Virus record (IMG/VR): IMGVR_UViG_3300043438_002264
Coordinates: 1 to 64,000 of that record
Length of the DNA stretch: 64,000 nt
Strand: one strand, 5' to 3'
Origin: a virus
Every line of letters begins with the position of its first letter. The stretch's first letter is position 1. The notes under the pieces were generated by a model, which saw nothing but the letters and a program-made list of their open reading frames with translations, was not told the origin of the DNA and ran no database searches. Shown here one piece after another: positions 1 through 14,530 of the stretch. Position numbers and translations under genes: made by a program.

Positions 1-2
1 CA

Positions 3-143
3 GAGGCAGACTTGCTTGTGTTTGATAGCGATGTCCTGACCTTGCAGCAATGGGAAACTCTTGGTGAGGTAAGCGACAACGATAGGTATGAGTATGTTCA
101 GGCTATCTTTGCTGGCAAAGACTTATCACTATGGGAGGGCTAA
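3..143 (+). CDS. C-terminal end of a hypothetical protein (cut by window edge)
   Basis: An open frame enters from the left edge and ends at TAA 141-143. The visible 46 residues are acidic and end in LSLWEG. The stop overlaps the next start as TAATG, so the two are probably translationally coupled in one plus-strand operon. No family is recognised. Confidence 0.6.
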   Translation, partial: EADLLVFDSDVLTLQQWETLGEVSDNDRYEYVQAIFAGKDLSLWEG

Positions 144-463
144 TGTTAGACCTGATAGAGATGGATTACAGGATTGATGAGTATACCAATGAGGCTAAAG
201 GTATTGCTTTCGATACCTGCCACAAAATCTACGTCCTAATGGATGAGGAGCAGGTTGCTCTTATGCGTGAGTATGGCTATGAAAAACTAATCACAAGTGA
301 TGAGATGAATGGTGATGAGCTAAGACGGCAAGTCATGGACTGGTATCACGAGTCTTGTGGACTTAGGTTTGTCAATGCCGTGTCAAGTGATAAAAGTTTT
401 GGGGATGATGGTTGGGTCACCATTATTGGTCAGGGCGAGGATTCTGAAGACGAAGATGAATAA
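143..463 (+). CDS. hypothetical acidic protein
   Basis: This 106-residue protein is rich in Asp and Glu and ends in an acidic tail (EDSEDEDE). An in-frame ATG lies at 131, but ATG 143 is preferred. It has GGGAGG at 133-138 directly upstream and overlaps the previous stop as TAATG. The next stop again forms TAATG at 461-465. No known domain is visible. It belongs to a run of small early-type phage genes. Confidence 0.75.
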   Translation: MLDLIEMDYRIDEYTNEAKGIAFDTCHKIYVLMDEEQVALMREYGYEKLITSDEMNGDELRRQVMDWYHESCGLRFVNAVSSDKSFGDDGWVTIIGQGEDSEDEDE

Positions 464-485
464 TGTCGGTGGGTGCTGATAAAGT
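464..485 (+). promoter_or_regulatory. TGTCGGTGGGT-type promoter, copy 1
   Basis: The core TGTCGGTGGGT (464-474) is followed after 5 nt by TAAAGT (480-485), a weak -10 box. Four other copies in the first 3 kb have the same geometry. It overlaps the stop of the preceding gene. No clear -35 hexamer is present here. Confidence 0.45.
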
Positions 486-504
486 GGAAGAAAGAAAGGA
501 AACT

Positions 505-675
505 ATGAAAACTTGGCAAGTAGAATACAATGCCGCTTATTGGGTAGAAGCAGAGACAGAAGATGAGGCTATTGAATTAGCTATGGAGAAACACGCTGAC
601 CTACCAGACGGAGATTGGGAAGCTATGATTGACCCCTATGATAGCAACAACTTCAATACCCTTGGAGAAAAGTAA
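505..675 (+). CDS. small DpnD/PcfM-like protein
   Basis: This 56-residue protein has the pattern YWVEAETEDEAIELA, an amphipathic beta-strand/helix motif like that of small DpnD/PcfM-type proteins. The frame opens at ATG 463, but ATG 505 has AAAGGAA just upstream and starts the conserved part. Related modules occur at 3042-3221 and in the C-terminal part of 24542-25078. Function is unknown. Confidence 0.65.
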   Translation: MKTWQVEYNAAYWVEAETEDEAIELAMEKHADLPDGDWEAMIDPYDSNNFNTLGEK

Positions 676-794
676 TGTCAGCGGGTAGCGTTATAATTAT
701 TGAGTGCCCAAGGCACGAAGGCAATTTCGATTGCACACCATTCTGCAACATATGTGAAGGAGAACAGGAGATAAAATGGGCACCAGGAATCTAA
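675..794 (+). CDS. tiny Cys-rich putative protein
   Basis: A 39-codon frame starts as TAATG on the previous stop and overlaps the next gene by 19 nt. It carries C11, H14, C20, C24 and C27, a zinc-knuckle-like spacing. The start coincides with promoter copy 2, so the ATG may be incidental. Coding status is uncertain. Confidence 0.35.
   Translation: MSAGSVIIIECPRHEGNFDCTPFCNICEGEQEIKWAPGI
676..697 (+). promoter_or_regulatory. TGTCRGYGGGT-type promoter, copy 2
   Basis: TGTCAGCGGGT (676-686) is followed after 5 nt by a perfect TATAAT (692-697). The -35 region is poor. It lies upstream of the gene at 776 and matches the other copies in core-to--10 spacing. Confidence 0.6.
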
Positions 795-1279
795 CAGTAG
801 TAAAGAATTCGCAGGGTACTACCAAAATTGCTCAATACGGACAATGGGACGGATACCCAAGCTATTCAGGTATTCAGGTCTTAGAGTTTTTGCGTGATGA
901 GTATAACCAACAGCTGTTGGAAGCTAAGCTTGATGTTGTAGAGTTTATTACAGACGAAGAGCTTGACACTATCTATGAGCCTTTCAAGACTATGGATTTT
1001 GAGAATAAGGAATTCCTAAACGCCTACCCTGGCCTACACAGAGATACAGGTGTTGACATTTTGAAAGTTGTTGCCAACGCCAAGGGTATTATCAAGACTG
1101 TAGACAATTCAGACTTTAGGAATGATGAACTATTTTGCGAGGGCGTCTATGAAGTAGACTTCCAATCTAAAAAGTTTATCTCTACTTATAACGAAATCAT
1201 CAAAGAGTTCTTTTTAGAAAACCTTCCGACTAATGAACACTACCTAACTGCAATGGGTGTGGAGCTGGAAACAGTATAA
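776..1279 (+). CDS. conserved phage protein, MGTRNLT type
   Basis: This 167-residue protein begins MGTRNLTVVK and contains YGQWDGYPSYSG. That N-terminal signature recurs in hypothetical proteins of many phages (recollection, not searched), and its function is unknown. AGGAG at 766-770 supports the start. It is transcribed from the TGTCAGCGGGT promoter at 676 and is followed by a strong hairpin. Confidence 0.8.
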   Translation: MGTRNLTVVKNSQGTTKIAQYGQWDGYPSYSGIQVLEFLRDEYNQQLLEAKLDVVEFITDEELDTIYEPFKTMDFENKEFLNAYPGLHRDTGVDILKVVANAKGIIKTVDNSDFRNDELFCEGVYEVDFQSKKFISTYNEIIKEFFLENLPTNEHYLTAMGVELETV

Positions 1280-1283
1280 GCAT

Positions 1284-1319
1284 GTTGGCCTAACCTTACT
1301 TCCTTTCTGTTAGGTCAAC
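1284..1319 (+). terminator. hairpin after the 776-1279 gene
   Basis: GTTGGCCTAAC (1284-1294) pairs with GTTAGGTCAAC (1309-1319), 10 Watson-Crick pairs plus one G-T, around a 14-nt loop. No U-tract follows, so it may be a terminator or an mRNA 3' stabiliser. Confidence 0.5.
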
Positions 1320-1338
1320 CGTCCTGGACACGACGTAC

Positions 1339-1369
1339 AAACTGTCCACTCTTTTGGGCTAGCCCACTT
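1339..1369 (+). repeat. CTCTTTTGGGGCTAGCC 3'-UTR element, copy 1
   Basis: This stretch matches 2534-2565 over most of its length and is centred on the palindrome GGGCTAGCCC. Both copies lie just after a stop codon and before the next TGTCGGTGGGT promoter. The rest of 1280-1497 holds two TTACGA words (1390, 1401) and TTTTCCCAAATT near 1420, also seen at 5.4 kb. Confidence 0.5.
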
Positions 1370-1434
1370 GTGTCTAAATGTCAAGCCCTTTACGATCTGT
1401 TTACGATAACCTCGAATCTTTTCCCAAATTAGTC

Positions 1435-1463
1435 TTGACTTTGTCGGTGGGTGGGTGTAAGAT
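1435..1463 (+). promoter_or_regulatory. TGTCGGTGGGT-type promoter, copy 3
   Basis: TTGACT (1435-1440), a 17-nt spacer and TAAGAT (1458-1463) make a sigma70/SigA-type promoter. The spacer contains TGTCGGTGGGT at 1442-1452. It drives the DUF932-like gene at 1498 with a 35-nt leader carrying AAAGAAAGG. Confidence 0.8.
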
Positions 1464-1497
1464 AGTCTTATCTAAACACTAAAGAAAGGCAATACAA

Positions 1498-2508
1498 ATG
1501 GCACATTTGTTAGAATCAGTAAACGGAGAAACAGCATTTGCTTCTTTTCGTGAGCCAGCTTGGCACGGATTGGGAACTGTATTCACTGAGGAAGTTTCAA
1601 CAGCTGAAATGCTAAAGAAAGCTAAACTAAACAACTGGGATGTTCGCTTGGAAGATGTAGAGATTCCTAACCAGTTTAGTTCCGACAAGAATTATTCTTT
1701 TGTCGTTAGAGATAACCCATTTACCTTGGGCAATAAGGATGTTCTTGGCATTGTCGGTGAGCGTTATGTTCCTCTTCAGAATGAGGAGCTATTTGATTTT
1801 GCTGACACACTATTAGACAATGGTGGCAGATGGGAAACTGCTGGTTCCATCAAGGGCGGTAGAGTTGTATTTGGCTCACTTGCTCTTGAGCGTGAAACTG
1901 TTATTGACCCTAACGGAGTTGGAGATAAAGTAAACACCTATCTTCTTGTAAACACATCTCACGACGGCTCTATTGCTATTCAGGCAAGCATTACACCTGT
2001 CCGAGTTGTATGTGCTAACACTCTAAACCTTGCTCTTGGTAATCGTGGGCGTAATGGTTCAGTAAAGCAGTCATTCAAGATTCGCCACACACAGACAGCA
2101 GAAGGTAAGATTCAGGTTGCTCGTGAGGCTCTTGGACTTGCTAACGCATACATTGATGAGTTTAGCCTAATGGCAAACAAGATGATTCAAGCTGAGGTTA
2201 GCAAAAAGAAGTTTGATGAAATTGTTTTGGCATTGTATCCACAGCCAAAAGAAGAAGCAAAGAACGCCAACAGTCGTTGGGCAAAAAAGATTGACCTTAT
2301 CAATGACATCTATGTTGGTGATTTCAACAACACAATTACTGGAACAGCTTGGGGTGTTGCTAATGCCCTAACTGAAAGATTAGACTGGTATAGAACAGGT
2401 CGCAAAGGCAAAACAGAATCACTTCTTGTTGGTGCCTCTGGTCTTGACCCAGTCATCAATGCTGAGAAGAATAGAATCTTCAAGGCAGTTCAGTTGGCAA
2501 CAGCCTAA
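1498..2508 (+). CDS. DUF932/TIGR03299-like phage protein
   Basis: This 336-residue protein has the family hallmark REPAWHGLGT near residue 22, then ERYVPLQNEELFDF and a C-terminal region rich in basic residues. These DUF932 (phage/plasmid-like, TIGR03299) proteins are common on phages and plasmids and lack an established function. Length is typical. It has its own strong promoter, RBS AAAGAAAGG and structured 3' region, so it is probably an abundantly expressed single-gene unit. Confidence 0.88.
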   Translation: MAHLLESVNGETAFASFREPAWHGLGTVFTEEVSTAEMLKKAKLNNWDVRLEDVEIPNQFSSDKNYSFVVRDNPFTLGNKDVLGIVGERYVPLQNEELFDFADTLLDNGGRWETAGSIKGGRVVFGSLALERETVIDPNGVGDKVNTYLLVNTSHDGSIAIQASITPVRVVCANTLNLALGNRGRNGSVKQSFKIRHTQTAEGKIQVAREALGLANAYIDEFSLMANKMIQAEVSKKKFDEIVLALYPQPKEEAKNANSRWAKKIDLINDIYVGDFNNTITGTAWGVANALTERLDWYRTGRKGKTESLLVGASGLDPVINAEKNRIFKAVQLATA

Positions 2509-2533
2509 CAGCAAAACACCTGAGCAAGTGTAA

Positions 2534-2565
2534 AAACTGCTCCCTCTTTTGGGGCTAGCCAACTT
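2534..2565 (+). repeat. CTCTTTTGGGGCTAGCC 3'-UTR element, copy 2
   Basis: Second copy of the element at 1339-1369, again between a stop codon and a TGTCGGTGGGT promoter. It contains GGGGCTAGCC at 2551-2560. A shorter GGCTAGCCC occurs at 5339-5346 after the last gene of the plus-strand block. Confidence 0.5.
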
Positions 2566-2627
2566 TACATAAAATAATTAACACCAAAAAATTCTTTACG
2601 AACAATCAAAAAAATCCCCCGAAATCG

Positions 2628-2656
2628 TTGACTTTGTCGGTGGGTATCAGTATAAT
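2628..2656 (+). promoter_or_regulatory. TGTCGGTGGGT-type promoter, copy 4
   Basis: TTGACT (2628-2633), a 17-nt spacer and TATAAT (2651-2656). The spacer includes TGTCGGTGGGT at 2635-2645. The start codon at 2663 lies six bases beyond the -10 box, so the transcript is predicted to be leaderless. Confidence 0.85.
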
Positions 2657-2662
2657 ATACCT

Positions 2663-3049
2663 ATGAACGTAAAAACCCTAAACCACATTGAAACTGCAAA
2701 AGTCCTTGGTCTCAAGAAGGGCGTTATTGTTTATCCTCATGCTGTTGTCAATACCCGCAAAGGTTTGGCAACTGTATCCTTTGAAGGTGTTGGATGGTTT
2801 GAAGACGAGTGCATGTATCCAGTCCTTGTTGGAGACGAATACAACAGCTGGATGGCAAAGCTTACTAAGGAGCAACTGCTAAGCTTAGTAAGAGAAGAAC
2901 CAGGAATGACCCTGCATAAACTAATAGACCCAATCAACGATAGAACACGATCTAATCTGTGGATTTGGGAAAATCAAATCAAAGACTTTGACCAAAATGT
3001 CGTAGGGTCAGAGTATAATGAACTGAAAAGAGAGGAAGCCCATGCCTGA
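2663..3049 (+). CDS. hypothetical protein, predicted leaderless mRNA
   Basis: This 128-residue protein of unknown family has short conserved-looking blocks such as VIVYPHAVVNTRKG. No RBS precedes ATG 2663. The -10 box TATAAT ends six bases upstream, which places the transcription start on or next to the ATG. The stop overlaps the start of the next gene (ATG 3042). Confidence 0.75.
   Translation: MNVKTLNHIETAKVLGLKKGVIVYPHAVVNTRKGLATVSFEGVGWFEDECMYPVLVGDEYNSWMAKLTKEQLLSLVREEPGMTLHKLIDPINDRTRSNLWIWENQIKDFDQNVVGSEYNELKREEAHA
2998..3019 (+). promoter_or_regulatory. TGTCGTAGGGT-type promoter, copy 5
   Basis: TGTCGTAGGGT (2998-3008) is followed after 5 nt by TATAAT (3014-3019), inside the end of the preceding gene. 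It would transcribe the gene at 3042. The -35 region is weak, though TTGACC lies about 3 nt outside the expected place. Confidence 0.55.
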
Positions 3050-3221
3050 ATTTAGAGTACAAAGAGAATACACCAACTGGGAAGAGATTACAGTTGAAGC
3101 AGATACACAAGAAGAGGCCTTAGACCTTGCTCAAGATGATGAGGACCTTTGGGAGTATGCAATTGATGCTACCACATACAACTACACAGGCGAGTATTGG
3201 GTAGGAGAAGACGATGAGTAA
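3042..3221 (+). CDS. small DpnD/PcfM-like protein, paralogue of 505-675
   Basis: This 59-residue protein contains ITVEADTQEEALDLAQ, matching VEAETEDEAIELA in the protein at 505-675, and shares a similar acidic C-terminus. AGAGGAAG precedes the ATG. The start overlaps the previous stop by 8 nt. Unknown function. The duplicated small module suggests local gene amplification. Confidence 0.65.
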   Translation: MPEFRVQREYTNWEEITVEADTQEEALDLAQDDEDLWEYAIDATTYNYTGEYWVGEDDE

Positions 3222-3318
3222 GCACATTCATTACTATGCATACGGAGCCTGCACTCATTGTGGCAAGGTAGTAAACAAAGGATTAGGTGTTGACTTATAC
3301 AAAGGCAAGAGAGTATAA
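3214..3318 (+). CDS. tiny CxxC protein
   Basis: A 34-codon frame overlaps the end of the previous gene by 8 nt. It encodes CTHCGK, half of a zinc ribbon, followed by a basic tail. Its stop lies within the TATAAT of the next promoter. Short and unrecognised. Confidence 0.4.
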   Translation: MSKHIHYYAYGACTHCGKVVNKGLGVDLYKGKRV

Positions 3319-3319
3319 T
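3290..3319 (+). promoter_or_regulatory. SigA-type promoter
   Basis: TTGACT (3290-3295), an 18-nt spacer and TATAAT (3314-3319). It lacks the TGTCGG core. It drives the gene at 3338, whose RBS AAAGGAG lies within the short leader. Confidence 0.7.
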
Positions 3320-3337
3320 GGAGAAAGGAGAAAATAA

Positions 3338-3481
3338 ATGACAATGGATGAACTAATGGAATACATTCTAAGAGAACTCCCTAATGCTGTATTTGGCGAG
3401 GAACACACTAACGGAGAAATCCTAATCGCAACTGGATTAGTAGAAGGCAAAAACGGAACCCTATCAGATTTGGATGACTAA
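3338..3481 (+). CDS. small hypothetical protein
   Basis: This 47-residue acidic protein has AAAGGAG upstream and a promoter at 3290. Its stop overlaps the next ATG as TAATG. No family is recognised. Confidence 0.6.
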   Translation: MTMDELMEYILRELPNAVFGEEHTNGEILIATGLVEGKNGTLSDLDD

Positions 3482-3876
3482 TGGAGCCAACAGAATACAA
3501 AGGCTGGGATGAGTGGGCTAAAAAGTTCAAGCCTATTCAGAATCACTTTTACCCAGACCAACCAGAAACCACAATGTTTGAAACTTATGGTGAAGAAGTA
3601 GAGTTTGTCAATAACTATGACCATAGGTATGTTTGGACTAATCTTACTGGAGACATGTCAGACCTTATTTGTGCTGGCTATCACTATGTAAATAGGATTG
3701 GTTATTACATTACTGAGGTACCGTGGGATAATGAGGATGACTATGCTTTACTATCAGTTGAGGTAGAGTGTGAATGCTACAACGAAGATGGCTATGAAAA
3801 TGGCGAGTATGGAAAAGCAGACTGTAAAGAATGCGAAGGTTATGGAATGATAACGAGGTATCTCGATGAGGACTAA
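3481..3876 (+). CDS. hypothetical protein with C-terminal zinc-ribbon-like motif
   Basis: This 131-residue protein is rich in aromatic and acidic residues. Near the C-terminus it carries CECY and CKECEGYG, resembling the CxxCxGxG repeats of DnaJ-type zinc domains. The start is coupled to the previous stop (TAATG). Metal binding is an inference from the cysteine spacing. Confidence 0.7.
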   Translation: MEPTEYKGWDEWAKKFKPIQNHFYPDQPETTMFETYGEEVEFVNNYDHRYVWTNLTGDMSDLICAGYHYVNRIGYYITEVPWDNEDDYALLSVEVECECYNEDGYENGEYGKADCKECEGYGMITRYLDED

Positions 3877-4201
3877 TAGTATTGATAAGACTAAGTTTAT
3901 CTATGACCTAAACATCTATCAGCTGGAGGAGCTGGACGCTGATGGTGAGTACAGGTATATGGGGCCATGGTATATCCATGTCTATGAATACACTGGTAAC
4001 ACGACGGAAGAGGTATCAGTTCCGATCGAGCTGACTCAAGATGAGTATAATAATATACTTAGAGATGACCCATACTATGATGAAAACGATGTCTGGTATG
4101 GCCTGGACGGATTCATGTTTGAAAAATGGAACAACCTGTCAGATAGACTCAAGTTTATCTTTGAGTCCCTACCTAAATACAAGGAAGAAGTTTTATTTTG
4201 A
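3866..4201 (+). CDS. hypothetical protein
   Basis: This 111-residue protein overlaps the previous gene by 11 nt. It is acidic and tyrosine-rich (YRYMGPWYIHVYEY). No domain is recognised. It ends just before a separate promoter at 4205. Confidence 0.7.
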   Translation: MRTNSIDKTKFIYDLNIYQLEELDADGEYRYMGPWYIHVYEYTGNTTEEVSVPIELTQDEYNNILRDDPYYDENDVWYGLDGFMFEKWNNLSDRLKFIFESLPKYKEEVLF

Positions 4202-4204
4202 TAC

Positions 4205-4233
4205 TTGACAAACTAATAGGATTCCTGTACAAT
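4205..4233 (+). promoter_or_regulatory. SigA-type promoter
   Basis: TTGACA (4205-4210), a 17-nt spacer and TACAAT (4228-4233), close to consensus. It precedes the short basic gene at 4282, leaving a leader of about 42 nt with AGGAG. Confidence 0.8.
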
Positions 4234-4281
4234 GGAATAGCAATACAAAACAATAACCAACAACCCAATAGGAGTAATAAA

Positions 4282-4440
4282 ATGGCAAAGAAGAACAAGG
4301 CAAAAACCTATCCTTATCTTGAGACTTGGGACACACGCTATGGTATGAGTCAGCGTGTGGTTCTACGCAAGGATGGTAAGTTCGTAGATAACATCTCACT
4401 TACCGCACTGAAGCAAGGGGTTAGGGTTTCCTCTCGCTAA
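4282..4440 (+). CDS. small basic protein
   Basis: A 52-residue Lys/Arg-rich protein begins MAKKNKAK. The frame also opens at 4198, but that start lies upstream of the promoter, while ATG 4282 has AGGAG at 4270-4274. The charge suggests nucleic-acid binding, though no domain is recognised. Confidence 0.65.
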   Translation: MAKKNKAKTYPYLETWDTRYGMSQRVVLRKDGKFVDNISLTALKQGVRVSSR

Positions 4441-4452
4441 TCAGTAAATGAG

Positions 4453-4488
4453 AAAAGGGGGGCACAGGTTCAGGCTTGTGTCCCCTTT
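4453..4488 (+). terminator. G-rich hairpin
   Basis: AAAAGGGG...CACA (4453-4466) pairs with TGTGTCCCCTTT (4477-4488) with a small mismatch. It lies after the stop at 4440 and before the -10 box TATAAT (4499-4504) of the next unit. There is no U-tract, so termination efficiency is doubtful. Confidence 0.45.
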
Positions 4489-4514
4489 CCCGTTCTGGTA
4501 TAATGAGAGGACCT

Positions 4515-4727
4515 ATGAGAAGAAGAATAAAAACAGAAGAAGAAAAAGCAGCATTGAAGTTAGCAACAATTGTTTCTGATGTGAGATTAGACTTAGATGA
4601 AGTTGGTATCTATCTTGGAAGATACGCACCAGCAGTTTCATACAACAGACTAATACTTGTAGCAGAATCAGCAGAGTTTGAGAAAGAGAGTATAGATGTC
4701 CGAAACACCCACGAACCACTTTTTTAG
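4515..4727 (+). CDS. small hypothetical protein
   Basis: About 70 residues starting MRRRIKTEEEKAALK, basic at the N-terminus and mostly helical. Upstream in-frame starts (4476, 4503) overlap the -10 box TATAAT at 4499-4504. ATG 4515 has AGAGGA just before it and is preferred. It overlaps the next gene by 32 nt. Confidence 0.6.
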   Translation: MRRRIKTEEEKAALKLATIVSDVRLDLDEVGIYLGRYAPAVSYNRLILVAESAEFEKESIDVRNTHEPLF

Positions 4728-4977
4728 AAAGTGTGAGATTCTTGGAGAGCTTTGGCTCAACTATCGTAATGACGAACAGTTCCAAGACTTTATAGAATAC
4801 AACGACTTGGGCTTGCCACTTGCTTATGCGTTTGCTAATGAAATTGCCAAAGAGACAGAGCTGGCAGAAAGATATGTAAATGAAAGCTATGACCTACTCG
4901 CAGAATCTTTGGGGGTATCAGGAACAGAACCATTTGATAGTCTTGAAGATATGTTAGAACAGTCAGTAGGAGAATAA
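4696..4977 (+). CDS. hypothetical protein, tandem paralogue A
   Basis: A 93-residue helical acidic protein. It aligns along its length with the next gene: IL..W..R, EY.DLG.PLA, AE.Y and a GV motif are shared. The stop overlaps the next ATG. A tandem duplication that has diverged. Function unknown. Confidence 0.7.
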   Translation: MSETPTNHFFRKCEILGELWLNYRNDEQFQDFIEYNDLGLPLAYAFANEIAKETELAERYVNESYDLLAESLGVSGTEPFDSLEDMLEQSVGE

Positions 4978-5303
4978 TGCCAGAGACACTACATTCAGAT
5001 AAGAGAGCTATCCTTGCTCAAATGTGGGAAGAGGACAGAGAGAATCTGGCTCTTCAGAAATTGTTTGAGTATGGAGATATTGGATTTCCACTCGCAAGCT
5101 CTATAGAGAATGATATTGTTGCCAGCACCTTAGTAGCAGAAAAATACATTGAGGATTTGTGGAATGTAATGCTTCAGTATTTTGGTGTTGAGGATACAGG
5201 AGAGTATGACCACTGGACGGACATCGCAGATGCGGCTGGTTGGGAGTGGGTAGAAAACTCAGAAGTTCCAGCGTATCTTGAAAAGTTAGAAAAAGAAAAC
5301 TAA
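4977..5303 (+). CDS. hypothetical protein, tandem paralogue B
   Basis: A 108-residue paralogue of 4696-4977 with a longer C-terminal tail (about 25 residues). It is coupled by TAATG. It is the last clear plus-strand gene before the repeat and origin region and is followed by a hairpin. Confidence 0.7.
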   Translation: MPETLHSDKRAILAQMWEEDRENLALQKLFEYGDIGFPLASSIENDIVASTLVAEKYIEDLWNVMLQYFGVEDTGEYDHWTDIADAAGWEWVENSEVPAYLEKLEKEN

Positions 5304-5311
5304 TAGACTTG

Positions 5312-5330
5312 CCCTCACTTAAGGTGGGGG
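5312..5330 (+). terminator. hairpin ending the first plus-strand block
   Basis: CCCTCAC (5312-5318) pairs with GTGGGGG (5324-5330) around TTAAG. GGCTAGCCC follows at 5339-5346, as after other plus-strand genes here. No U-run is present. Confidence 0.45.
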
Positions 5331-5380
5331 TAAAGTCGGCTAGCCCTATCAAATTGAGATATCCAAATAGCCAAATACCA

Positions 5381-5838
5381 TTACGAACGCTATCATATTT
5401 TTCCCAAATTGTCAAATACTATTTTCCCAAATAGGATTACGATCCTAATATGTTTTTCCCCAAAATGGGATTACGATCCATAGGATCTTTTTCCCAAATA
5501 GGGGTATAATTGGTATATGAGCCCAAGAAGATATTTCACACACTTCACAAATATGTATGTTCCCATAGATGATAATGTTAACTATGGTACTAACCTATGG
5601 TTTACCTTTACTGCTATTACAGGTATATCTAAGCTCTTCACATATACCCCCGATTTTTTGCAGGGGCAGGAGCAGCAGCCGCAGGCTGCAGATTCCCAGG
5701 GTATTGAAGACACCTTGGATAACAAATCCCTCTAGTATAATATACATTACGAACCCTTTGGATTTTTCCCCAAATATGGGATATGTTTCTTAAAATAACA
5801 TTACGATTATCAAATATTTTATCCCAAATTGGGGATAT
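5381..5838. repeat. interspersed TTTTTCCCAAAT and TTACGAWCC words
   Basis: TTTTTCCC(C)AAAT-type words start near 5398, 5422, 5453, 5488 and 5763, and a near-palindrome ATCCCAAATTGGGGAT lies at 5821-5836. TTACGA with a following A/T and often CC occurs at 5381, 5437, 5471, 5748, 5801, 5951, 6330 and 6563. At 5422-5479 the two words form a repeated block of about 33 nt. The region is AT-rich and apart from a doubtful small frame at 5517 appears non-coding. It could hold iterons or regulator sites for the adjacent origin. Confidence 0.6.
5517..5735 (+). CDS. possible small leaderless gene in the repeat region
   Basis: A 72-codon frame begins six bases after TATAAT (5505-5510), the same spacing as other leaderless genes here, and has no RBS. 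The product (MSPRRYFTHF...) has no recognised domain. It lies within AT-rich repeats, so it may be spurious. Confidence 0.35.
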   Translation: MSPRRYFTHFTNMYVPIDDNVNYGTNLWFTFTAITGISKLFTYTPDFLQGQEQQPQAADSQGIEDTLDNKSL

Positions 5839-5876
5839 TATTGTATGTTTTATATGCGGATATTTGGCATACAAGG

Positions 5877-5917
5877 ATACAGTATTTGGTATTTGATATA
5901 CAGTATTTGGTACTTGA
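5877..5917. repeat. two-copy tandem repeat of about 20 nt
   Basis: ATACAGTATTTGGTATTTGA (5877-5896) and ATACAGTATTTGGTACTTGA (5898-5917) differ at one base and sit 21 nt apart, two helical turns. They lie about 110 nt from the DnaA-box cluster and may be iteron-like sites. Confidence 0.6.
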
Positions 5918-6023
5918 CAAATGAGGGAAAGTGTGATAGGCAATTTGGGCCTTACGAACCCTCAATCAGAAATGCCCCATTACCCATATCTCTCCACAAC
6001 CATCCACAAATAGCCAAATAGAT

Positions 6024-6084
6024 TTATCCACAGTAAGATGTATATGTGGATAACTTGTGAATAACTTATCAAATATGTGTATAA
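6024..6084. other. DnaA-box cluster, candidate replication origin
   Basis: Four DnaA-box matches lie within 61 nt. TTATCCACA at 6024-6032 and its reverse complement TGTGGATAA at 6045-6053 are perfect. TGTGAATAA (6056-6064) and TGTGTATAA (6076-6084) each differ by one base. A weaker CCATCCACA is at 6000-6008. AT-rich sequence follows. The cluster sits where plus genes from the left and minus genes from the right converge, next to iteron-like repeats. It resembles a bacterial oriC and suggests recruitment of host DnaA. Confidence 0.6.
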
Positions 6085-6125
6085 GTTTTTAAAATTTGGG
6101 GGTATTTAGATCTTCGGATGGGCGG

Positions 6126-6209
6126 CTATCGTTTATTCAAATATGCCAATATGAGAGCACAAACGCCAAATAGGATTGTCAGGCATATGATGATTTGGTC
6201 ATTTGTCAT
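6126..6209 (-). CDS. tiny single-span membrane protein, predicted leaderless
   Basis: A 27-codon frame encodes one hydrophobic segment flanked by polar ends (MTNDQ start, LNKR end). TATACT lies exactly six bases before the ATG, the leaderless spacing seen elsewhere in this window. It is too short for family assignment. Confidence 0.4.
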   Translation of the reverse strand: MTNDQIIICLTILFGVCALILAYLNKR

Positions 6210-6235
6210 GTATCCAGTATAGCAAGATTTCTGGA

Positions 6236-6307
6236 TTATTTCTTCAATGTTATTAATGAGCATATGAGGGTTATTGCTATCATCCAAACCATCACGTTAT
6301 CCAACAT
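6236..6307 (-). CDS. possible tiny membrane peptide
   Basis: A 23-codon frame encodes a hydrophobic peptide ending in LKK. TATAAG lies nine bases upstream together with AAGGAA. It sits next to another small membrane frame (6126-6209). It may be non-coding. Confidence 0.25.
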   Translation of the reverse strand: MLDNVMVWMIAITLICSLITLKK

Positions 6308-6364
6308 AGGTTATTCCTTATACTAGGGATTACGAAGGCTCGTTTTAATACCCCCGAAATTATC

Positions 6365-6440
6365 TGGTGCCCTCAGTTGGACTCGAACCAACACTGAATA
6401 GATTTTAAGTCTACTTCCTCTGCCATTGGGATATGAGGGC
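6365..6440 (-). tRNA. tRNA-Leu(TAA), short variable arm, CCA encoded
   Basis: A complete cloverleaf of 76 nt: acceptor GCCCTCA/TGAGGGC with A73 and encoded CCA, anticodon loop CTTAAAA on a GTAGA/TCTAT stem, T-arm GTTGG-TTCGAGT-CCAAC. The anticodon TAA reads UUA. The variable region is only about 5 nt, whereas bacterial Leu tRNAs normally have a long variable arm, so charging identity is uncertain. Confidence 0.85.
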
Positions 6441-6446
6441 TAATGA

Positions 6447-6647
6447 CTATTTTCTACCCCAACTGACTTTAAGCCAAAACCTTTCATGGATGTAATACAA
6501 TACAAAGTTAATAAGATTTGATATCAAGGATAGGGATGCTGCAAACTCCCAGCTGTTGGTCATTACGAACCCAACTCCAAATGTCACGAATATTGCTATT
6601 AGTCTCCAGGTTATGGACTTAGCTAGTGAACGTCTTTTACTGACCAT
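6447..6647 (-). CDS. DUF2061-like membrane protein
   Basis: A 66-residue protein starts MVSKRRSLAKSITWRLIA and has two hydrophobic segments. The SLAKSITWR signature and a length of about 60-70 residues fit DUF2061, a small inner-membrane family of unknown role. It overlaps the upstream gene by 11 nt and ends just before the tRNA-Leu. Confidence 0.75.
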   Translation of the reverse strand: MVSKRRSLAKSITWRLIAIFVTFGVGFVMTNSWEFAASLSLISNLINFVLYYIHERFWLKVSWGRK

Positions 6648-6852
6648 CTATTTCCCAGTCTTTGGCATATCCATAACATACCCCACCTGTGGTCATATCC
6701 CAAATAGCGATCTCTCCTAGCTGGAGATATTTGACCTGAGTTGGGGATGTGATATGGAACATCCATTTGCCTTCTGGAATAGCAAATTCAGTATCTGAGT
6801 CACTCATTCGATTGATATGTGTGTCTCTCTTGGCTGTTGCAAATTGGCTCAT
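6637..6852 (-). CDS. small hypothetical protein, predicted leaderless
   Basis: A 71-residue protein of unknown family with several beta-rich stretches. It lacks an RBS. A consensus promoter (TTGACA, 17 nt, TATAAT) ends six bases before the ATG, so the mRNA is probably leaderless. The downstream membrane protein gene overlaps by 11 nt. Confidence 0.7.
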   Translation of the reverse strand: MSQFATAKRDTHINRMSDSDTEFAIPEGKWMFHITSPTQVKYLQLGEIAIWDMTTGGVCYGYAKDWEIDGQ

Positions 6853-6858
6853 ATATAA

Positions 6859-6887
6859 ATTATACAGGGGACACTAGAGAATGTCAA
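6859..6887 (-). promoter_or_regulatory. consensus SigA promoter for 6852
   Basis: On the minus strand, TTGACA (6887-6882), a 17-nt spacer and TATAAT (6864-6859). The -35 overlaps the inverted repeat AAGCAC-TT-GTGCTT at 6886-6899, a possible operator. Confidence 0.85.
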
Positions 6888-6913
6888 GCACTTGTGCTTG
6901 CATTAATCTCTAT
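6865..6913 (-). repeat. promoter/operator cassette, copy 1
   Basis: About 49 nt shared with 8127-8175: a CTAGAR spacer, the -35 box, the inverted repeat AAGYAC-TT-GTRCTT and ATTAATCTCTATTTA. The arms differ between copies by paired changes that keep the symmetry. Confidence 0.6.
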
Positions 6914-6927
6914 TTACCGCCGAACTT

Positions 6928-7686
6928 TTAGTTATTAGTTTCAATAATACGGGTGTATGTAATATCGCTATTGCCGTTGCCTTTAGCCCAGTTTTTTATC
7001 GAACGAACTTCAGTCCTGTCTCCTGGCTTACCCCCAGCGTGGATCATTTCGTCAGGGCCTATATAGATTCCGATGTGATAGGCACTACCATAACTTTGAT
7101 AGTTAAAAGACACAAGGTCCCCAATCTTAGGAACAGTGACAATGGCTCCAGATAGTCTTTGCTTTGTTGCACTGTGCTCTAGATCAACACCCAGGTGAGC
7201 ATATGTCCACATAACCATTCCTGAGCAGTCCCAAGCTGATGGCGTGGATCCGCTAAAGACCCAAGGTGTTTTTCCAATTTGCTTTTTAACCAAGACTAAA
7301 GTTTCATTCAACTTCTTGGTATCGCTGGCAACTTTTTCCAGTCTGGCAATCTCTGCCTCTAGCTCATCTTGTTTTTTCTCAGCGTCGGACTTGAGCTTAT
7401 CCTTTGCTGCCTTCTCCTGAGCCATCCAATCAACGGAACCAACAAGTGGTGCGTCTGAAGCCAGGACTGGCCCAACTGCCAACTCTAGAGCCTTCACTGG
7501 CCCTGAGAAGATAACTTCTGTTGTTACTGGAGAATCAATTACTGGTGTTGGCTTTGTTACTTGTGTTACTGGTTGTTCTATGTTTGATGACTCAGTTGAC
7601 TCTATCATAGCTCCAAAAGCTACTCCAGTGCCACTTGTCAGTAGCAGTGCAATCATACCAATTGCTATGAACCTTTTTTCTTTCAT
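6928..7686 (-). CDS. secreted NlpC/P60 peptidoglycan hydrolase
   Basis: This 252-residue protein has a signal peptide (MKEKRFIAIGMIALLLT...), a Pro/Thr-rich linker, a coiled coil at about 88-130 and a C-terminal NlpC/P60 domain. Catalytic Cys154 is in WDCSGMVMW and His204 in SAYHIGIYIG, with His216 in MIHAG as the likely third residue. Such enzymes cut gamma-D-Glu-to-diamino-acid bonds in peptidoglycan stems. The architecture resembles host RipA/Cwl-type enzymes, so it may be an exported endolysin or an envelope-remodelling enzyme acquired from a host. RBS AAGGAAAGG. Confidence 0.88.
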   Translation of the reverse strand: MKEKRFIAIGMIALLLTSGTGVAFGAMIESTESSNIEQPVTQVTKPTPVIDSPVTTEVIFSGPVKALELAVGPVLASDAPLVGSVDWMAQEKAAKDKLKSDAEKKQDELEAEIARLEKVASDTKKLNETLVLVKKQIGKTPWVFSGSTPSAWDCSGMVMWTYAHLGVDLEHSATKQRLSGAIVTVPKIGDLVSFNYQSYGSAYHIGIYIGPDEMIHAGGKPGDRTEVRSIKNWAKGNGNSDITYTRIIETNN

Positions 7687-7809
7687 TTAGCGACCTACCT
7701 TTCCTTGTTAGTTAGTACTCGGTCGTTGAGCGTTAGTGGGTGGTTTACCCTATTAAGTTATAAACCCTTGAGACAGACACATCCATCTCAAAGGGGTACT
7801 ACTATTTTA
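7687..7809 (-). promoter_or_regulatory. structured 5' leader of the NlpC/P60 gene
   Basis: The roughly 120-nt leader (minus strand) contains complementary arms TTTGAGA and TCTCAAGG flanking about 12 nt, then GGGT...ACCC and CGCTCAACGACCGAG segments. A -10-like TAAAAT is at 7809-7804. Long structured leaders often precede actinobacterial cell-wall hydrolase genes, but I could not match a known riboswitch consensus. Confidence 0.35.
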
Positions 7810-7833
7810 CCATAAATTAAGACAAAATACACA

Positions 7834-8088
7834 TTACTTAGTTTTATTTTTAGTTTTTAGCTTTAGGTTAGTGACCTTTTTTAGCCAAGGTTTCTCTGAA
7901 TATCTGGCCCATTCATAGATAAAGATGCAGGCTGCAATAAGCAGTCCAAGGGAGGCTGACTGCACAATGTAGTAAGGGGTTGGATCAATTAGATAAGTTT
8001 CCCAAGGGAAGCTATAAGCCACCACTGGGAATGCAATGATGTTTCCAAACACTACGGCAACTACAATACTCTTGTAAACGTTTTTCAT
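7834..8088 (-). CDS. small two-span membrane protein
   Basis: An 84-residue protein with hydrophobic segments at about 8-26 and 40-60 and a Lys-rich C-terminal tail (KLKTKNKTK). RBS AAGGAG is in the leader and the promoter is at 8121-8149. It could be a holin or an envelope protein. It lies between two secreted hydrolases, which would fit either. Confidence 0.65.
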   Translation of the reverse strand: MKNVYKSIVVAVVFGNIIAFPVVAYSFPWETYLIDPTPYYIVQSASLGLLIAACIFIYEWARYSEKPWLKKVTNLKLKTKNKTK

Positions 8089-8120
8089 TTGTTCTCCTTG
8101 TTAGTTAAATCTTATGTATC

Positions 8121-8149
8121 ATTATACAGGTGGTGCTAGAGGATGTCAA
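8121..8149 (-). promoter_or_regulatory. consensus SigA promoter for 8088
   Basis: Minus-strand TTGACA (8149-8144), a 17-nt spacer and TATAAT (8126-8121). The -35 overlaps the inverted repeat AAGTAC-TT-GTACTT at 8148-8161. Confidence 0.85.
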
Positions 8150-8175
8150 GTACTTGTACTTGTATTAATCTCTAT
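8127..8175 (-). repeat. promoter/operator cassette, copy 2
   Basis: Second copy of the cassette at 6865-6913. It precedes a gene with an ordinary leader rather than a leaderless one, so only the promoter and operator part was duplicated. Confidence 0.6.
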
Positions 8176-8178
8176 TTA

Positions 8179-9081
8179 TCAAAATCCCAGAAATGCGTAC
8201 CTTATCGCCCTATCCAGTAGCTTGCTGTGATAGTAAATAGGATCAACTCTGTTAAGCCCTCCATGGATATTCCACTTAGCTCTGTTAAAACAGTTTGGAC
8301 TATCTATCGGCCATGCGTTTAGCCCAACGTAAACGAAACGGTTTGCAGTTTCAGTAAAAATCCCAGCACCACTATCTCCATCACATCCTGCACCAGTTTT
8401 CTTACTGGTTTTTGTCCAACCCCATTTTTCATAGGGGTCAGTAAATGCAGGCCAATAATGTTTGTCAAGACGATTGTCCATTACAAGGTTGTAATGCTTC
8501 TCATCTACAAAGGGAAACGTGAGTGTTCTGGGCCACTTGTACCCCTCCATTTTCATGTTCCTTTCTTCTTCCGACGATAATCCGTAGCCCCCAATGGTCA
8601 CAAACGCCTTCTCTTTGACTAAGTTCTTGAATTCGGCTTCGGTAGCTGCTGTGGCCCAGGAAACTTTTGCAACTGGCTCTTTGGTCACTACAATCATAAA
8701 ATCCTTATTGTTATAAGCTGCAAGGTTTCTAACCGTGCTGTATTTTTTGTAGCTGAATACCTTTTTAGCTTGCACGAGGTCAGTTCGATCGGTGCTAAGA
8801 AGCTGTCCTGGATAGCCTATAAAGACTTGGGTGTCTGGCCACTTTTCATCACCTCTAAATGGCCTGAATTGACAATGCCCTGCAGAAATGACAATTCTGG
8901 GAGCGAAAAGAAATCCTGAGCATGCTGAGTAAAAGTCTTCTGAGGAGCCTTTATCGTCCAAAAGTACAATTGAAACAATCCTTGGATGATTTCTTGCCTC
9001 TTCTCCGCCCTCAATTGCAAAAGATTGAATTGGCTGAAGCACCAGGATTGAAGAGACAATAGCTATTAATAGTTTTTTCAA
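8179..9081 (-). CDS. secreted trypsin-like (S1) serine protease
   Basis: A 300-residue protein with a signal peptide followed by the activation-like IEGGEEA. The catalytic triad is His69 (ISAGHC), Asp127 (NKDFMIV) and Ser237 (GDSGAG), numbered from TTG 9081. That start gives MKKLLIAIV..., has GGTAGGTGG upstream and overlaps the preceding TGA. An ATG at 9096 would add five residues with no RBS. Paired cysteines flank the His motif. Phage-encoded secreted trypsins are rare. It could process surface proteins or act at the envelope. Confidence 0.88.
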   Translation of the reverse strand: MKKLLIAIVSSILVLQPIQSFAIEGGEEARNHPRIVSIVLLDDKGSSEDFYSACSGFLFAPRIVISAGHCQFRPFRGDEKWPDTQVFIGYPGQLLSTDRTDLVQAKKVFSYKKYSTVRNLAAYNNKDFMIVVTKEPVAKVSWATAATEAEFKNLVKEKAFVTIGGYGLSSEEERNMKMEGYKWPRTLTFPFVDEKHYNLVMDNRLDKHYWPAFTDPYEKWGWTKTSKKTGAGCDGDSGAGIFTETANRFVYVGLNAWPIDSPNCFNRAKWNIHGGLNRVDPIYYHSKLLDRAIRYAFLGF

Positions 9082-9629
9082 TTTCCACCTACCCATTTTG
9101 AGAACAATAGTTTTTGATATATTTCTTTTGCATCTTCTAAAAATGGGGCTGTTTTTGTATACTCTAGGGCTTCTGGATATGAGCTAACATCTTTAGAGCT
9201 TACTAGATACCCTTCTTTTGCATCATCTTTAGAAAGGTTAAGGTCATACTCAACACTTGATCGTTTTAAAGAAAAATGATCTAAGAATTTTTCTATTGTA
9301 TTTTTAGGATCATTAGTCAGGTCTTCGTAAGAAACAACATAAGTTGCATTTTCTAAAAGCCAGGCATAGGTTTCTTCATATTTTTTTAGCATTCGTGGGA
9401 TTATCCCATAACCGTTTTCTTTTTTATAAAAATCTACCATAGCCATAGCAGATGCGACAGACTCTACTGGATTTCTTATTATTGTTATAGTTTGCTTTTT
9501 ATCTAAAAAATGTGTTATTTCGTGAGAAGCTAAAATGGAATATCCTTGTTGGCGAAGAAGCATTCTAAAAAGATTTTGTCCAGACCTGGGATATGTTATT
9601 AACTTCATATCTTCAATTTCTTTTTTCAT
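9078..9629 (-). CDS. sulfotransferase-like protein
   Basis: This 183-residue protein has TYPRSGQNLF at about residues 12-21, the 5'-phosphosulfate loop of PAPS-dependent sulfotransferases, and IIRNPVESVAS at about 50-60, the 3'-phosphate motif. The enzyme would transfer sulfate to a glycan or other acceptor. It is shorter than typical family members. ATGA overlap with the upstream gene and GAAGGA support the start. Confidence 0.75.
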   Translation of the reverse strand: MKKEIEDMKLITYPRSGQNLFRMLLRQQGYSILASHEITHFLDKKQTITIIRNPVESVASAMAMVDFYKKENGYGIIPRMLKKYEETYAWLLENATYVVSYEDLTNDPKNTIEKFLDHFSLKRSSVEYDLNLSKDDAKEGYLVSSKDVSSYPEALEYTKTAPFLEDAKEIYQKLLFSKWVGGN

Positions 9630-14140: not shown

Positions 14141-14530
14141 TTAACGAATGCGAATTGATTTTGGCTTTTTCTCTTCTGGAATATTTCTTACCAAATGAAT
14201 ATACAGAATACCGTCCTCAAATTCAGCTGAATCTACTTCATAGTATTCTGGTAGCGAGAATGAGCGAGTAAACCTGCGAGCAGCAATACCTTTATGTAGG
14301 TATTTCTTATCGTCAGCGTCTGGCTTTTCTGCTTTTATTGATAGGACATTTTTTTCAGCAGTAATGCTGATTTCATCCTTTTTGAATCCAGCTACCGCAA
14401 ACTCCATTACAATCTTGTCGTCGTTAATCCTGACAACGTTGTATGGTGGGTAGGTGTTTGTTGCTGGTGTTGTGCTAAAGAACTTGTCAATATCTAGACC
14501 AAGTCCTCCGAATGGTGTTGTAATAACCAT
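14141..14530 (-). CDS. Hsp20/alpha-crystallin small heat-shock protein
   Basis: A 129-residue protein with the alpha-crystallin domain: MEFAVAGFKKDEISITAE, RRFTRSFSLP and GILYIHLVR, ending in a conserved basic tail with a C-terminal IRI-type anchor. Family members prevent aggregation of unfolding proteins. Hsp20 genes are also carried by T4-like cyanophages, where a role in virion assembly or stress is assumed. It stands alone on the minus strand with an AGGAG-type RBS. Confidence 0.92.
   Translation of the reverse strand: MVITTPFGGLGLDIDKFFSTTPATNTYPPYNVVRINDDKIVMEFAVAGFKKDEISITAEKNVLSIKAEKPDADDKKYLHKGIAARRFTRSFSLPEYYEVDSAEFEDGILYIHLVRNIPEEKKPKSIRIR

Follow-up and report, generated by a model that had tools for sequence, protein, structure and literature searches.

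The region at positions 5373-6084 of a 64,000-nt stretch of viral DNA (positions 1 to 64,000 of IMG/VR record IMGVR_UViG_3300043438_002264; hereafter, the window) is probably a phage replication origin opened by host DnaA, in which a cluster of DnaA boxes and a module resembling the basal unwinding system (BUS) are combined with phage-specific repeats (Table 1). The window belongs to a 124,540-bp record of a large WhiB-encoding actinophage. The two ends of this record repeat 8,517 bp exactly and in direct orientation (the right copy at 116,024-124,540), which leaves a unit genome of 116,023 bp.

Four DnaA boxes (cluster A) lie within 61 nt, at 6024-6084; these are the two perfect and two one-mismatch boxes that a first-pass annotation, made from the letters of the window, had reported, and they were found precisely where it placed them. 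The terminal repeat provides a second copy of the cluster at 122,047-122,107 of the record. A whole-genome count, which that annotation proposed as a check, revealed that perfect boxes are not evenly spread: TTATCCACA occurs five times in the unit genome, at 6024 and 6045 (cluster A) and at 112,206, 112,227 and 112,317 (cluster B), and nowhere else. The number of TTATNCACA sites per 61 nt reaches four in cluster A vs. at most two anywhere in 300 second-order Markov genomes. Since the loose pattern TTWTNCACA is not enriched over the whole window (9 found vs. 9.07 by chance), it is the clustering of the boxes, not their number, that is unusual.

The arrangement of cluster A is retained in a large set of related phages. 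Scanning IMG/VR for AGTAAGAT-N(2-12)-TGTGGATAAC yielded at least 119 stretches, and further scans with core positions released raised the total to at least 142 phage loci. The recurring element is CAGTAAnAT-N5-TGTGGATAAC, its spacer being exactly 5 nt in 76 of the 80 matches listed, where 2-12 nt were allowed. Of the 97 loci that could be tested, having 1.5 kb or more of left flank, 96 have a gene homologous to the family at 4476-5303 left of the core and on the same strand, at a median distance of 792 nt, and a second minus-strand box follows the first at a pitch of 11 or 12 in 42 of 53 loci. In the common layout, the core is flanked on its left by A+T-rich DNA and TCCACT repeats and, on its right, usually by further minus-strand boxes, with the weakest mean stacking energy at the core itself (53 loci); in this genome, the weakest 30-nt stretch near the cluster (~6066-6095) is slightly right of the core. 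At the level of individual genomes, cluster A is located between homologues of genes 4977-5303 (+) and 6637-6852 (-) in G012, beside the 6637-6852 homologue in G005 and G009, and beyond the 4977-5303 homologue in G037, G036, G027, G033 and G040. The search in relatives that the first-pass annotation had suggested has, therefore, established conservation by position, spacing and neighbouring gene. A copy of a bacterial oriC was rejected, as a search of bacterial and archaeal genomes totalling 257 Gb gave two matches to AGTAAGAT-N5-TGTGGATAAC, neither of them at a locus with a homologue of the phage genes. The earlier proposal of a host-like origin that borrows host DnaA can be retained in its second part, to the extent that the sequence speaks for use of host DnaA; the layout itself is phage-specific, not host-like.

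In a BUS, one or more DnaA boxes are separated by 0-16 nt from three or more central-adenine trinucleotides, which lie on the strand that leads 3'->5' away from the boxes (PMC8287927); the strict trio, 3'-[G/A]A[T/A]-5', is present in more than three copies with a GC cluster before them (PMC7561715). This genome has a spacer of 5 and three triplets, which corresponds to the relaxed rule (PMC8287927), as well as tandem boxes with a gap within the 3 bp specified for a BUS, the perfect box at 6045-6053 being followed by a one-mismatch box 2 nt on. In most relatives, adenine recurs at every third base beside the boxes for about seven triplets. Over 135 loci, with a mean of 5.9 triplets, the central-adenine frequency in triplets 1-7 is 1.0, 1.0, 1.0, 0.86, 0.95, 0.75 and 0.76, the first three values being fixed by how the loci were selected. 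The in-phase extension past the selected core amounts to 93 triplets vs. 24.9 +/- 6.2 in shuffled sequences (maximum 49 in 2000 shuffles) when counted in 40 loci of <80% identity, a filter that merely softens the dependence among loci of related phages, which are not independent samples; in 61 distinct loci, it amounts to 168 vs. 28 and 38 in the other phases. Releasing core position 5, a triplet flank, added new loci among the 80 matches listed (25 C and 7 T over all loci), and no new loci appeared among the matches listed upon release of positions 3 or 6, which are triplet middles, or of position 4, likewise a flank. Overall, the triplets appear to resemble the DnaA-trio unwinding system under its relaxed, not its strict, definition.

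The left flank contributes the phage-specific component of the site. In this genome, the 37-nt unit takes the form ATTACGA...TTTTTCCCAAAT, and TTACGAWCC is present at 5437, 5471, 5747, 5952 and 6563; the upstream repeats described in the first-pass annotation were recovered as the 37-nt array, TTACGAWCC and the 21-nt-period pair, with exact TTTTTCCCAAAT limited to two sites (5398 and 5488). In 63 distinct relative loci, the 1 kb left of the core has repeats of the type ATTACGA-N12-14-TYCCC, with ATTACGA numbering 4.2 per locus, most commonly spaced by 34-39 nt and including 50 copies at -100 to -50 from the core. Their orientation is nearly uniform (326 one way vs. 2 the other over 77 loci), and, of 53 relative loci, 52 have a TTGACA-type promoter-like site that faces the boxes, compared with a single locus that has one on the opposite strand. 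Motifs of the (A/T)TTACGA type are also observed near boxes in phages BillNye, Annadreamy and Samisti12. A phage initiator or regulator would be the obvious candidate for a binder of the ATTACGA repeats. From the sequence, the array was also weighed as a set of putative ECF-type promoters for the opposite strand.

Table 1. Positions of sequence features in and around the putative origin region (window coordinates).
Feature	Position	Strand	Source
Left copy of exact 8,517-bp direct terminal repeat, containing cluster A	1-8517		sequence
Five ~37-nt repeats ATTACGA-N(12-14)-TTTTYCCC, starting at 5373, 5429, 5463, 5739 and 5793	5373-5829	+	repeat search
Two 20-nt copies with 21-nt period (ATACAGTATTTGGTAYTTGA)	5877-5917	+	repeat search, this genome
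Promoter-like TTGACA with weak -10, directed at boxes	5914-5940	+	sequence
TTACGAACC between promoter-like site and core	5952-5960	+	motif search
Two TCCACA repeats left of core (TCCACT repeats in relatives)	5993-6008	+	sequence, relatives compared
Perfect DnaA box TTATCCACA	6024-6032	+	sequence, box scan
Core CAGTAAGAT with three central-adenine triplets (TAG AAT GAC, 3'->5' away from boxes)	6031-6039	+	triplet analysis
5-nt spacer between core and box	6040-6044	+	spacing in relatives
Perfect DnaA box TTATCCACA adjoining core (TGTGGATAAC on +)	6045-6053 (6045-6054 as TGTGGATAAC)	-	sequence, box scan
DnaA box TTATTCACA, one mismatch, pitch 11 from previous box	6056-6064	-	box scan
DnaA box TTATACACA, one mismatch	6076-6084	-	box scan

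With respect to the replication machinery, the DnaE-, DnaG- and DnaB-like proteins named in the first-pass annotation were all confirmed, the phage encoding a DnaE-type polymerase, DnaB-like helicase, DnaG-like primase, UvsX-like recombinase and ribonucleotide reductase. With regard to its companion claim, that no own initiator shows in the window, no match to the DnaA family or domain was found in the whole record, nor in 12 relatives, which speaks against a phage-encoded DnaA, and no Rep family was recognised among the window proteins scanned, many small open reading frames (ORFs) without a known family being left unscanned. A large phage that encodes its own polymerase, helicase and primase is commonly assumed to initiate by phage-encoded factors. 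The precision of the conserved site suggests that dependence on the host initiator and, therefore, on the host cell cycle may extend to an entire clade that is common in environmental viromes.

Combining these elements, we infer the following course of initiation. Host DnaA would bind the tandem TGTGGATAAC boxes and, once bound, would be directed leftward across the fixed 5-nt spacer onto the central-adenine triplets of CAGTAAGAT and the adjoining A+T-rich DNA. The weak DNA would then open, allowing the DnaB-like helicase and DnaG-like primase to load and the phage DnaE polymerase to copy the template, which would make cluster A an active origin. Firing may be controlled by the ATTACGA repeats and the promoter-like site, probably through a putative phage protein.

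That DnaA can take part in initiation at the origins of phages and plasmids is established in principle by P1 oriR, mini-F and RK2 (review PMC4980987). As in such DnaA-assisted iteron origins, an oriented direct-repeat array adjoins DnaA boxes and weak DNA within one intergenic region; the phage site differs in that no Rep-type initiator was recognised among the proteins scanned. The oriC of Escherichia coli is composed of an unwinding element and box R1, and the phage site shares with it, in its commonly depicted orientation, weak A+T-rich DNA directly left of TGTGGATAAC and more boxes to the right, while differing in its phage-specific ATTACGA and TCCACT repeats and in that no 13-mer repeats, which were not specifically searched for, were seen. 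The BUS of Bacillus subtilis oriC (boxes #6/#7; PMC6669920, PMC8287927) is similar in its tandem boxes, short spacer and central-adenine triplets running 3'->5' away; the present site differs by residing on a phage with no neighbouring dnaA, by an A+T-rich spacer fixed at 5 nt, by triplets that depart from the strict form and by the absence of a GC cluster. The Ori-Finder origin of Pseudomonas phage vB_PseuGesM_254 (PMC11512268) also has predicted DnaA boxes beside A+T-rich DNA; this phage is unrelated and, in the available portion of that report, the origin is a software prediction for a single genome, with no comparative evidence. Our search of the literature, from which most subscription journals were outside the searched set, found nothing on DnaA boxes in the phages considered here and no description of a clade-wide, spacing-locked form of DnaA-box origin.

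Several observations weigh against an origin at cluster A. The strict trio consensus and the GC cluster are missing, the spacer is A+T-rich and this genome has just three triplets in register; it is for the absent consensus and GC cluster and for the three triplets that we term the module BUS-like rather than BUS. In most cultured Streptomyces relatives, boxes are present without a triplet run. Genes converge on cluster A, as the first-pass annotation had pointed out and the ORFs confirm: the plus-strand ORFs end at 5303 and are followed by a minus-strand tRNA-Leu (6365-6440) and minus-strand ORFs, so that forks leaving both ways would meet transcription head-on. Cumulative GC skew has its maximum at 5339, by the cluster, and its minimum at 108,210, a maximum being, by bacterial convention, the sign of a terminus. 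The skew turn that was anticipated for this position is thus real, with a sign opposite to that of a bacterial origin. It follows, however, the coding strand (mean skew +0.14 for plus-strand and -0.08 for minus-strand ORFs), and we have dropped it as evidence for or against an origin. Taken as a bacterial chromosomal oriC, the site would be atypical, with no dnaA in the record and a skew maximum rather than a minimum.

The existence of cluster B, outside the window at 112,206-112,337 of the record (locus L005, 8206-8337), is a further point against cluster A. It may be proposed that cluster B is the true origin and cluster A an accessory, termination or initiator-loading site, which we consider unlikely. 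Cluster B has three perfect boxes (spanning 112,206-112,325) and TTATACACA; one of its boxes adjoins A+T-rich DNA in which eight central-adenine triplets follow a spacer of 13, and both the skew minimum and the point where genes turn rightward are nearby. Nevertheless, the left half of the cluster is missing from G012, a close and complete relative, and box pairs of the B type are found in several copies per relative, by small-gene promoters and without a fixed layout, whereas the layout of cluster A is fixed. These pairs recur between small early genes with a pitch of 12 or 21-22, followed by GTAAC/GTTATGA repeats and promoter-like DNA, and are possibly DnaA-controlled early promoters.

Two further explanations grant the boxes to DnaA and deny them a role in starting phage replication. 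In the first, the boxes form a datA-like sink titrating host DnaA to halt replication of the host. In its favour, each genome has several box pairs, which are concentrated around the early small genes and at cluster A, and many phage copies would presumably bind a large amount of DnaA; a sink requires, however, no exact 5-nt spacing, triplet phase or adjoining weak DNA, and we regard it as improbable. The second has DnaA repress or attenuate a transcript by binding downstream of the promoter-like site; it draws on the promoter-like TTGACA that reads into the boxes in nearly all relative loci and is equally improbable in our estimation: no conserved ORF was seen directly downstream, the facing genes are on the other strand, and the triplet phase and weak DNA are left unexplained. 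A packaging or terminal-repeat processing site, finally, could account for the location of cluster A inside the terminal repeat of this record and for the boxes at 123.0 kb in Samisti12, which end ~50 nt from the start of a 10,666-bp terminal repeat, yet this very improbable reading is rejected because the box-to-repeat distance is not conserved among phages, exceeding 5 kb in both BillNye (boxes at 119,428, 2,262-bp repeat from 124,823) and Annadreamy (boxes at 118,873, 789-bp repeat from 124,938).

Returning to an origin opened by host DnaA at cluster A, a more far-reaching and only tentative extension, which we hold to be rather doubtful as a whole, is that of a large, widespread actinophage clade with its own DnaA-box/DnaA-trio opening module, ~35-nt repeat array and origin-linked acidic protein, in which host DnaA could serve both as initiator and, given the additional DnaA-box pairs at early small-gene promoters, as early regulator. 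The conserved site in itself offers a natural test of the DnaA-trio model, with well over a hundred variants of the putative unwinding module on small genomes and their central adenines in phase. Furthermore, dependence on host DnaA is directly testable in cultured Streptomyces relatives that have a corresponding box cluster.

Of 13 cultured phages of the Stanwilliamsviridae type, 12 (including DekoNeimoidia, whose record was opened elsewhere) carry TTATCCACA as two or three perfect copies towards the right-hand end of the long gene block, in the gap that corresponds to the location of cluster A; the thirteenth, StarPlatinum, has a single perfect box there. The layout of their cluster differs from that of cluster A, with the outer box at a near-constant 252-256 nt in nine Loccivirinae-type phages. 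Perfect boxes number 0, 0, 1, 0 and 0 in five other DnaE-bearing actinophage genomes. The high-affinity DnaA box of Streptomyces is listed as TTGTCCACA (PMC4285127); the Streptomyces phages nonetheless use TTATCCACA. A DNA search of the core region against cultured phages returned a match of 47 nt, at 85% identity and covering the DnaA boxes, in GenBank PQ006958.1 (3865-3911), a 4.4-kb virus from rodent faeces named bajarodmic virus 735, which perhaps represents an independent DnaA-box pair in a small phage.

The phage appears to be related to Stanwilliamsviridae at about the family level, judging by its DnaE, WhiB and 8.5-kb repeat. Across its full length (100%), the DnaE-type polymerase shares 53-55% identity with those of Streptomyces phages of this family, relatives of it being encoded on hundreds of IMG/VR contigs (78-100% identical among those listed), and WhiB is a marker used for actinophages (PMC6802176, PMC10202952). 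The 8,517-bp repeat may be genuinely terminal or may have arisen by assembly wrap-around; terminal repeats in known relatives range from 789 to 10,666 bp.

Directly left of the origin region, 4696-4977 and 4977-5303 encode two small proteins that are related to each other and very acidic, with net charges of -16 and -18. This family has 116 members found, near a cluster A-type site in nearly all loci, and no match in Pfam, PHROG or cultured phages. The AlphaFold model is all-helical and confident (pLDDT 93.5); a structure search gave no significant match, the weak helix-turn-helix resemblances (E ~1) not being evidence. We consider the protein a candidate DnaA- or DNA-mimicking factor.

In a search for structured RNA at the site, tRNA-Leu alone reached the family threshold. 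Further left, 1498-2508 (+) encodes a DUF932 protein that is kept in the same block of most relatives, including Samisti12 and Annadreamy, and other phage genes encode trypsin-like (8179-9096, -) and sulfotransferase-like (9078-9629, -) proteins as well as an HSP20 chaperone (14141-14530, -).
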